NCBI RefSeq assembly: GCF_023734095.1
Contig: NZ_AP024620.1
Coordinates: 2,352,501-2,416,500, forward strand
Origin: Moorella sp. Hama-1
GTDB taxonomy: Bacteria > Bacillota > DSM-521 > Neomoorellales > Neomoorellaceae
Reading direction: 5' to 3'
DNA: 64,000 nucleotides
Shown: piece by piece, positions 26,881-31,208 of the stretch
Numbering within the stretch: position 1 is the stretch's first letter
Layout of the letters: each line of letters opens with the position of its first letter
Made by a program: the position numbers and the translations under genes
The notes under the pieces: generated by a model
The model's input: the letters and a program-made list of their open reading frames with translations, nothing else
What the model was told of the DNA's origin: nothing
The model's database searches: none

Positions 26881-26912
26881 AAAGAAGCAGTCCATTAGGA
26901 CTGCTTCTTTAT
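26881..26912. terminator. Bidirectional terminator between trpS and hicB
   Basis: Perfect 12-bp stem AAGAAGCAGTCC/GGACTGCTTCTT with the four-base loop ATTA. The hicB stop codon falls in the loop. A/T-rich flanks let it act in both directions. Confidence 0.85.
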
Positions 26913-27329
26913 TCGCTGGTGATAATCGTGGATGCCGAGGTACTGTTTTAAACTGGTCTGAAGCAGGTGGGAAAAATTAACTTTCTCCCTTTCAGCTATA
27001 TCATTGAGCCACTTGGGGATTGTCAGGGTCTTTTTTATAGCCTTATTTTCTATCTCGTCCCTGACGATATCTGTCCAAGCTTCCACTAGTGCAATAAAGG
27101 CACCGGGTGGTATTTCCATTTCGCCAGGATCTGAAGGTGCAGGAATATTTTCGCCGTCTTCTTCCATGCCGTAAAGGAAACCGGCCAAAGCATCTTTGGC
27201 CATAGCCATTGCTTCTTTTAAATCTTTACCTTCAGTAATACAGCCGGGGAGATTGGGAAAGGTCACTGTATACCCCGGGCTACCGTCGTCACCCGGATCA
27301 AAAATCGCTGGAAAAATATATTTTGCCAT
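26895..27329 (-). CDS. hicB: HicB-family antitoxin
   Basis: 144 residues. The N-terminal HicB partial RNase H-like fold reads FDPGDDGSPGYTVTFPNLPGCITEGKDLKEAMAMAKDALAGF, and the C-terminus carries a ribbon/helix DNA-binding region (IPKWLNDIAEREKVNFSHL). It neutralises HicA and represses the operon. It lies 24 bases after hicA, the usual toxin-first order of this system. Confidence 0.93.
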   Translation of the reverse strand: MAKYIFPAIFDPGDDGSPGYTVTFPNLPGCITEGKDLKEAMAMAKDALAGFLYGMEEDGENIPAPSDPGEMEIPPGAFIALVEAWTDIVRDEIENKAIKKTLTIPKWLNDIAEREKVNFSHLLQTSLKQYLGIHDYHQRIKKQS

Positions 27330-27353
27330 AAGTGGAACCTCCTTTCCATAGGA

Positions 27354-27545
27354 TTAACTAATCCCCGCCTGTTTAAATATAGATTTTACAGTTCCGGGTT
27401 TTATGTCTTTTCTAGGGTGGGGCACCGTAACGGTACCCTTTTTCTTGGGATGTTGAAAATGGTGATGACTGCCTACAACTCGCCTTAATACCCAGCCATC
27501 TTGCTCGAGTATTTTTATGATTTCTTTAGAGGAGTATGTCTTCAC
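27354..27545 (-). CDS. hicA: HicA-family mRNA interferase toxin
   Basis: 63 residues from GTG 27545, after a GGGAGGGG ribosome site. Double-stranded-RNA-binding-like fold with the catalytic His in GSHHHFQHP and the KGTVTVPHPRKDIKPGTVKSIFKQAG tail that define HicA. Longer reading frames upstream would begin inside the promoter and are rejected. Confidence 0.93.
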   Translation of the reverse strand: MKTYSSKEIIKILEQDGWVLRRVVGSHHHFQHPKKKGTVTVPHPRKDIKPGTVKSIFKQAGIS

Positions 27546-27566
27546 CTTACCCCTCCCTTCAAAGCA

Positions 27567-27596
27567 ATTATAATACGTATTTTGCATACGTGTCAA
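27567..27596 (-). promoter_or_regulatory. hicAB promoter with operator in the spacer
   Basis: Consensus promoter on the minus strand: TTGACA (complement of 27591-27596), 18-base spacer, TATAAT (complement of 27567-27572). Inside the spacer is the inverted repeat ACGTAT-N5-ATACGT (27575-27591), well placed for repression by HicB. Confidence 0.8.
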
Positions 27597-29921: not shown

Positions 29922-29949
29922 TTAACAAATCTTGCCCGTCTGCTATAAT
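29922..29949 (+). promoter_or_regulatory. Promoter of the structured leader/thioesterase unit
   Basis: TTAACA (29922-29927), 16-base spacer, TATAAT (29944-29949). Transcription would start near 29956, about 200 bases before the thioesterase ATG. The remaining part of the gene-free stretch 29651-29921 shows nothing I can identify. Confidence 0.65.
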
Positions 29950-29955
29950 TACCCA

Positions 29956-30142
29956 TAGGCATATAGATTTTATAATTCCCCACTGGCGCCCGTAGAGCGC
30001 CGTACTCCTGCCCGGGTGAGACTCCCGGGGCCGAGGTCTCCCTGTCGCTATGCTTGCCCCAGGGGCAAGCAAATTAAACTTAGAAGGAGTGAAAGCCTGG
30101 ACATGGGGAGGCTGGCTATTGTGAAAAACAATTAGCCTTTTT
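29956..30142 (+). ncRNA. Unidentified structured RNA (leader attenuator or small RNA)
   Basis: About 190 bases between a promoter and an intrinsic terminator, dense in nested complementarity. A closing stem UUCCCCA/UGGGGAG (29976-29982 with 30104-30110) encloses hairpin GGCGC/GCGCC (29985-30001) and a second stem ACUCC/GGAGU (30004-30008 with 30086-30090). The second stem in turn encloses CCCGGG/CCCGGG (30011-30029) and an 8-bp stem GCUUGCCC/GGGCAAGC (30052-30070). An alternative pairing GAGAC/GUCUC (30018-30022 with 30036-30040) competes with the CCCGGG hairpin. I could not match it to any riboswitch class, 6S, SRP or tmRNA that I know. No reading frame explains it. Confidence 0.55.
30114..30142 (+). 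terminator. Intrinsic terminator at the end of the structured leader
   Basis: GGCTA-TTGT/ACAA-TAGCC stem with one bulged T and a GAAAA loop, followed by five T. It lies 15 bases before the thioesterase start, so it would cut off that gene unless bypassed. Confidence 0.7.
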
Positions 30143-30157
30143 CGACCAGGCAATTTT

Positions 30158-30562
30158 ATGGGCGAGAGTTACTGTTTCGGCTGCAGCAAGCAGAACCCCA
30201 TCGGCCTGCACCTGGAGTGTTTCCCCCAGGATGACAGTACCTGGGCCACCTATTTTACCCCTGCACAATATCACGAGAGCTATAACGGTATCATGCACGG
30301 CGGCCTGATAACCACCGTGCTGGACGAGTTAATCGGCAATCACCTGGGCCGGGGCCGGGGCCTGTGGGCCGTAACCGCTCGCCTGGAAGTTCGTTTCCGC
30401 AAACCCATTCCCACCGGGGAACGGATTAAATTTGTCAGCCGCATCATTAAGGAGCACCGGCGGATCTTCCAGGTAGAGGCCTGGGCCGAGCTCCCGGACG
30501 GCCAGATCGCCGTCGAAGCCCGGGCGGAAATGATGGCGCGTGCAGCAAATAAGCCCTCCTAA
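30158..30562 (+). CDS. PaaI/YbgC-like hotdog-fold thioesterase
   Basis: 134 residues with the hotdog thioesterase signature HGGLITTVLDELIG (about 48-61) and the following RLEVRFRKPIPTGERIKF strand pair. The N-terminus has CFGCSKQNPIGLHL, typical of a subgroup of Firmicute PaaI-like proteins. It hydrolyses an acyl-CoA, type unknown. The ribosome site is weak (AGG), and a terminator lies just upstream, so expression is probably conditional on leader read-through. It is monocistronic. Confidence 0.88.
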   Translation: MGESYCFGCSKQNPIGLHLECFPQDDSTWATYFTPAQYHESYNGIMHGGLITTVLDELIGNHLGRGRGLWAVTARLEVRFRKPIPTGERIKFVSRIIKEHRRIFQVEAWAELPDGQIAVEARAEMMARAANKPS

Positions 30563-30679
30563 AATAGCGCTTCCTGCTATTCTCATCCACTGCTGGTGCC
30601 GCCTGGCGGCATGGGCGTCTTGAAGGCAAATGTAAAGAAAGATATAATTAATACTATAAACCAGGGGGGTGAAAATGAA

Positions 30680-30928
30680 ATGCCAATTATAGCCCGGTTT
30701 TATGGCATTGTTATTAAAATGTTCTTTAATGAGCATCTACCGCCCCATTTTCATGCTCTTTACGGCGAATATAATGGCATTTTTAATATCAAAACTCTGG
30801 AAATGATAGAAGGCGATATGCCGGTACGGGCTCGAAAGCTCATTCTCGAATGGGCTGAAACTCAGCAAAAGGAACTGGAACTAATGTGGAATACGAAAAA
30901 GTTTAAACAGCTCCCTGGCCTGGAGTAA
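30680..30928 (+). CDS. DUF4160 protein
   Basis: 82 residues from ATG 30680 (GGGGGG upstream), beginning MPIIARFYGIVIKMFF, with the family motif EHLPPHFHALYGEY and the helix ARKLILEWAETQQKELELMW. DUF4160 genes are found paired with DUF2442, as here 14 bases downstream. The pair has been suspected to be a toxin-antitoxin-like module, but I know of no demonstrated activity. The conserved His-rich loop suggests a metal or nucleic-acid role; this is inference. Confidence 0.85.
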   Translation: MPIIARFYGIVIKMFFNEHLPPHFHALYGEYNGIFNIKTLEMIEGDMPVRARKLILEWAETQQKELELMWNTKKFKQLPGLE

Positions 30929-30941
30929 GGGGGTAAGGCCT

Positions 30942-31208
30942 GTGTTCTATCCCAAAGTCAGAGATGTACAACCTTTAAGGGATTATACGTTGATTATCAC
31001 CTTCGACAACGGGCAAGTTAAAAAATACGATATGCAGCCCCTGATTGCCAGGCCGCCCTTTGATATTTTACGTGACCCCATTATCTTCAGTATGGTCCGA
31101 GTCGATGCCGGCGGTTACGGTATTAGTTGGAGCGATGAACTGGATTTAAGCGAGTATGAGCTTTGGAAGAACGGGGAATTAATTACTAACTACACCTATA
31201 ATAATTAA
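30942..31208 (+). CDS. DUF2442 protein
   Basis: 88 residues, GTG start. The family pattern is clear: VRDVQPLRDYTLIITFDNGQVKKYD, then VDAGGYGISWSDELDLSEYELWKNG. It is co-transcribed with the DUF4160 gene and followed at once by a terminator. By analogy with other two-gene modules of this size it may be the antitoxin-like partner, unproven. Confidence 0.85.
   Translation: MFYPKVRDVQPLRDYTLIITFDNGQVKKYDMQPLIARPPFDILRDPIIFSMVRVDAGGYGISWSDELDLSEYELWKNGELITNYTYNN

Follow-up and report, generated by a model that had tools for sequence, protein, structure and literature searches.

The structured RNA upstream of a Moorella thioesterase gene as a probable solo right end of an IS607/TnpB element

The thioesterase locus

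The window, by which we mean the whole 64,000-nucleotide stretch of Moorella sp. Hama-1 DNA analysed here, contains a promoter, a structured RNA and a thioesterase gene in succession:

29922..29949, + strand: thioesterase promoter TTAACA-16-TATAAT, older than the insertion; the same promoter occurs without the RNA in two sister genomes (G009, G002)
29960..29982, + strand: junction segment, probably left by deletion of the left part of an element; without similarity to the empty site or to other copies
29983..30150, + strand: probable solo right end, the 3' part of a structured, presumed guide RNA, ending CCAGG; assigned by homology to element copies
30146..30150, + strand: CCAGG, end of the element with the GG recombination core, and probably the substitute Shine-Dalgarno; assigned from empty sites
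30151..30170, + strand: host sequence, the would-be guide stretch of the right-end RNA, including the thioesterase ATG; placed by the TnpB guide position in PMC11061315
30158..30562, + strand: hot-dog thioesterase, host gene (Pfam 4HBT, E = 7.8e-8)

The promoter consists of TTAACA (29922-29927) and TATAAT (29944-29949) separated by a 16-nt spacer, and it matches consensus at 11 of 12 positions (1 site against 0.3 expected), in agreement with the preliminary description of a good promoter. That description had assigned it to the RNA. Two sister genomes of the genus, G009 and G002, lack the RNA: there the same promoter (38/43 bases identical) leads to the Shine-Dalgarno CTGGAGG and, after a short spacer, to the thioesterase ATG. 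The promoter is therefore the thioesterase's. We place the left breakpoint in the window at 29983, where homology to other copies ceases. On the 3' side, the conserved unit extends past the limit of 30142 given earlier and ends at CCAGG, 30150. The distance of 15 nt reported between the terminator and the gene stands, with the ATG at 30158. CCAGG lies 7 nt before this ATG and is likely the present Shine-Dalgarno.

Two other gene pairs were noted in the window. A DUF4160 and DUF2442 pair lies just 3' of the thioesterase (30671-31208, +) and is also found downstream in the sister genome G002. A HicA/HicB-type toxin-antitoxin pair is located at 26895-27596 on the minus strand (Pfam HicA_toxin 1.9e-25, HicB_lk_antitox 1.6e-13).

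Fold of the RNA

Comparison with relatives resolved the following pairings, all on the + strand:

5' arm 30003..30008, 3' arm 30086-30091: helix a, core CUCC/GGAG; weakly supported, 84% paired with little variation
30011..30029: hairpin 1 (CCCGGG/CCCGGG), invariant in the 17-sequence set; compensatory changes occur among solo copies
30035..30042: pseudoknot helix b, 5' arm GGUCUCCC; 100% paired, UA/CG/GU changes
30052..30070: hairpin 2 (GCUUGC/GCAAGC), covarying
30096..30100: helix c, 5' arm, in which CCUGG pairs with CCAGG 30146-30150; formed in all solo copies
30106..30113: pseudoknot helix b, 3' arm; 94% paired in solo copies, with compensatory changes
30114..30142: hairpin 3 followed by a T5 run, resembling a terminator; copies differ in stem sequence and retain the pairing

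The fold energy of the window RNA (z = −1.95, equalled by 8 of 200 shuffles) would not by itself have convinced us. The six helices are 96% paired in 17 sequences; double-change cells number 24, as compared to 7.6 in shuffles, and pairing falls to 35-63% when the helices are slid. Helix a, one pair of which forms in the window copy alone, was kept as a weakly supported helix. Helix b crosses helices a and c, and corresponds to the competing pairing seen from the single sequence; such a conserved pseudoknotted fold, with covariation that includes the crossing helix, is expected of a TnpB guide RNA. The earlier observation of a structured RNA with hairpins is thus borne out by compensatory changes in relatives. 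The long closing stem proposed from near 29952, which minimum-energy folding also returns, was rejected, as its 5' arm lies in junction DNA that is not homologous to other copies. Helix c likely sequesters the probable present Shine-Dalgarno in pairing.

The terminator of the preliminary description survives in part: hairpin 3 (30114-30137) and the T5 run (30138-30142) are visible by eye and conserved, the T-run being almost constant among intact copies, and a simple terminator scan did not list them. Intrinsic termination at this position is plausible from the sequence. At gathering thresholds, Rfam gave no match in the window and at E<=10 chance-level matches alone, so that the RNA matches no Rfam class, as had been suspected; neither 6S RNA nor any riboswitch class matched the window RNA. 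Covariation among homologues and a search of Rfam had been named as the checks to make, and they yielded covariation and no family, 6S RNA included. We found no support for the sensing of acyl-CoA or metals by the window RNA. Overall, the earlier observation is partly confirmed and its interpretation partly supported.

The complete element and its insertion target

The window copy scores 172.9 bits (E = 4.3e-40) against the covariance model of the RNA. The conserved part of the window copy spans 29986-30150. A whole-genome DNA search found five further cores in the same genome, and the covariance model brought the total to seven. Within the order, 13 of 22 genomes have the RNA, and of 399 genomes sampled across the phylum 40 do (25/268 genera), often in several copies; right-end copies precede dozens of unrelated genes. 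Hosts of the associated TnpB include Moorella, Desulfofundulus, Carboxydocella thermautotrophica (many loci), Thermovorax, Fervidicola and Desulfovirgula, and hosts of the element family are mostly thermophilic.

Full copies of about 2.7 kb contain tnpA, tnpB (∼568 aa) and then the structured RNA as the right end. Their TnpA (∼221 aa) has a MerR-type helix-turn-helix (1.4e-13) followed by a resolvase domain (1.8e-22), the layout of IS607 TnpA; this protein is absent beside the window remnant. The TnpB relative matches NCBIfam guided_TnpB at E = 9e-21 (74.5 bits against a cut-off of 100) and also TIGR01766. Among 32 TnpB proteins, D322 and E411 vary little or not at all, the third RuvC aspartate is replaced by an invariant histidine (H478), and the zinc-finger cysteines are missing. 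The D-E-D triad and zinc finger of TnpB nucleases are thus incomplete, and the protein is still TnpB/Cas12-like in sequence and fold. A PDB sequence search with TnpB returned nothing credible, so its AlphaFold model was used for a fold search; confidence in the model is low (pLDDT 65), as are the TM-scores, and the 17 best PDB matches were all of Cas12 type. The protein at L066:2638-4344 (residue 478) and its 31 homologues form a His-for-Asp clade without zinc-finger cysteines, whose members could be nucleases with an altered site or proteins that only bind.

The RNA of full copies lies directly 3' of tnpB and extends to the right end, its last bases being TTTTTTGAACCAGG. This is the position of TnpB guide RNAs, and the RNA is presumed to be the guide RNA (omegaRNA/reRNA) of TnpB. 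This function stays putative because TnpB scores below the cut-off and lacks the third RuvC aspartate and the zinc cysteines. Rfam scans of full elements found a neighbouring tRNA and sub-threshold matches only. In the gene region downstream of one full copy (L126:2717-2775) we observed a sub-threshold match to bacterial SECIS (RF01989, 42.3 bits against 63, E = 5.7e-7).

In 35 copies the start of tnpA could be located, and their left junction reads GGAGG in 34 and GGACG in the remaining one. Of 85 right ends, 71 have the start codon of an open frame 3-16 nt further on (mostly 6-11 nt), as compared to window backgrounds of 15% for GG and 23% for GGAGG; these counts are partly non-independent, some copies being orthologous or from near-identical genomes. 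An exact empty site is found in G001 (TTATTGGAGGCCAGTACAATG), and in G010 the element is situated between GGAGG and CCAGTACAATG. A full-length element with intact tnpB and split tnpA (L059:2041-4758) resides in the Shine-Dalgarno of pgk, encoding phosphoglycerate kinase, in the Hama-1 genome, and relatives show an intact GGAGG Shine-Dalgarno there. The empty sites with a GGAGG Shine-Dalgarno indicate that GGAGG is part of the target and is the gene's own Shine-Dalgarno. As the element occupies the Shine-Dalgarno of a central metabolic gene, pgk, right ends must allow some downstream expression.

At the exact and window empty sites, insertion occurred at GG with no target duplication and no terminal inverted repeats, in agreement with IS607 recombination, which takes place at GG without target duplication (PMC6188088). 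IS607 TnpBs use AGGAG or GAGGG as TAM (PMC11061315), and GGAGG fits both these TAMs and GG-core recombination. The left junctions (34/35) give only indirect support to the predicted binding of TnpB and guided cleavage next to the TAM-like GGAGG. We found no report of ribosome-binding-site targeting in the openly licensed literature on IS607 and TnpB, which is weak evidence of absence.

The closest known system is the IS607 TnpB with RAGATH-18-derived reRNA (ISFba1 and relatives; PMC11061315), which likewise is an IS607 element with an RNA extending 3' of tnpB to the right end. The ISFba1 reRNA also has three stem-loops and two crossing pairings or pseudoknots, one of which involves the bases immediately preceding the guide (PMC11061315); by analogy, helix c may be the counterpart of this pseudoknot. 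Both have an AG-rich motif at the left junction, AGGAG or GAGGG in the ISFba1 group (PMC11061315) and GGAGG here. Unlike that group, TnpB here has ∼568 aa instead of ∼390 aa, lacks the zinc-finger cysteines and has histidine for the RuvC-III aspartate, and the window copy is without tnpB and the 5' part of the RNA. RAGATH-18 had no Rfam match at E<=5 in full-element loci or at E<=10 in the window. The ISXfa1 TnpB reRNA is also an IS607 right-end RNA that crosses the element border, with a G-rich target motif (GGG), although it belongs to another TnpB clade and the passages of PMC10711439 that we searched report no Shine-Dalgarno targeting. IStrons share the IS607-type element and a structured RNA near the right end; this assignment was rejected, since Rfam scans of full elements showed no group I intron and there was no sign of splicing.

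Origin and fate of solo right ends

The window copy lacks tnpA, tnpB, the left end and the ∼130 nt conserved 5' part of the RNA found in full copies, and is thus almost certainly, from these comparisons, a solo right end of an IS607/TnpB element. We consider the following history very probable. A ∼2.7 kb IS607-type element, with its TnpA serine recombinase, TnpB relative and right-end RNA, would have entered the GGAGG Shine-Dalgarno of the thioesterase without target duplication. A subsequent deletion would have left only the last ∼168 bp of the element and placed the thioesterase's own promoter beside its right end, which is then expected to be transcribed from this promoter as a structured 5' leader, with the terminal CCAGG probably standing in for the lost Shine-Dalgarno. 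The RNA of intact copies would guide TnpB to GGAGG-flanked targets and keep the element in place. Right-end identity, multicopy family, insertion target, empty site and covarying fold are read from the sequence; transcription of the window RNA, TnpB binding and any regulation are inferred. At the thioesterase the hairpin with its T-run and the CCUGG/CCAGG helix may dampen expression, and a passive or mildly attenuating leader is most likely.

The preliminary description had proposed a terminating riboswitch or independent small RNA specific to the thioesterase. The promoter, fold and terminator-like hairpin do stand in the right order, and with the Shine-Dalgarno in a helix the arrangement resembles attenuator and riboswitch leaders, but the identical RNA type precedes dozens of unrelated genes and lies 3' of tnpB as IS607/TnpB right ends, and relatives have the promoter without the RNA. 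Unlike such leaders, the RNA originates as a transposon end and has no gene or ligand specificity. With no Rfam class and unrelated downstream genes, the riboswitch was rejected, and we regard a gene-specific RNA of either kind as extremely improbable. A second reading holds that TnpB from intact copies binds the solo RNA in trans and is led to cut empty thioesterase alleles (GGAGG followed by CAATTTTATGGGCGAGAG...), which would maintain the insertion or let it spread. The genome encodes five intact TnpB genes despite the orphan state of the window copy, the 3' core and terminus of which are conserved, and its own site, being without GGAGG, would be spared. Against this, the conserved 5' RNA is absent from the window copy, and the 5' flanking motif of ISFba1 contributes to a pseudoknot that is required there (PMC11061315). 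Such trans activity is very unlikely, and because of the missing 5' part the window copy is probably not a working guide.

Solo or degenerate copies also precede rplM, tgt, purA and others in other genomes. Three further groups were observed, before rpsR (ribosomal protein S18) in four congeneric species (G393, G142, G107, G069; cognate TnpB not found), before a response-regulator gene in three Moorella genus members (G005, G003, G006) and in G307 of another family, and before a B3/4-domain gene in two congeneric species as well as before a homologous gene in G241 of another family:

rpsR: L161:376-546 (−), L165:3304-3474 (+), L186:383-553 (−), L210:546-738 (+)
response regulator: L140:349-526 (−), L141:3273-3433 (+), L217:725-820 (−), L213:672-787 (−)
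B3/4: L050:2044-2210 (−), L148:3030-3196 (+), L190:381-549 (−)

The G241 copy may be either an independent insertion or a transfer. Cognate TnpB was not found in nine genomes with solo or degenerate copies.

These solo copies bear on whether the thioesterase right end became a cis-regulatory leader, with the pseudoknot and CCUGG/CCAGG helix gating the Shine-Dalgarno or the terminator in an attenuator-like manner, a possibility compatible with transposon origin. Solo copies elsewhere occupy orthologous places, mostly in genomes lacking cognate TnpB. Between the members of two closely related pairs, RNA identity is 93-94%, as compared to 86-88% at third codon positions and 59-70% in upstream DNA, and the response-regulator RNAs are far better conserved than the DNA 5' of them; in the most diverged pairs (G307; G069) RNA identity is near the third-position level or lower. 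Across 21 solo copies 92% of cells are paired, a figure inflated because a structure-aware model, which favours well-paired copies, selected them; helix c forms in all, and helix b, a helix absent from the search model, is paired in 94%, with compensatory changes. The T-run is often broken in long-kept copies, as expected if termination was harmful. These patterns support a possible cis function for some solo copies elsewhere, and an exapted leader somewhere in the wider family is a tentative proposition that we think doubtful. The window copy shows no such conservation, no sister genome has it, and two have the empty site. A regulatory leader at the thioesterase is accordingly unlikely, and a passive or mildly attenuating one remains our preferred reading.

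Solo ends of transposon guide RNAs can mimic a riboswitch, with promoter, fold, terminator-like hairpin and gene in order, which explains the apparent orphan riboswitch at this locus. The AG-rich target motif would make ribosome-binding sites a landing zone, giving the element relatively safe sites and genes ready-made leaders in the form of right ends. It is conceivable, though we would not call it probable, that a Shine-Dalgarno-targeting IS607/TnpB subfamily seeds leaders in this way, with right ends exapted, once the protein genes are lost, before rpsR, the response regulator, the B3/4-domain gene and perhaps the thioesterase. Should the retained solo copies prove functional, new cis-regulatory RNAs would be able to arise from transposon guide RNAs.
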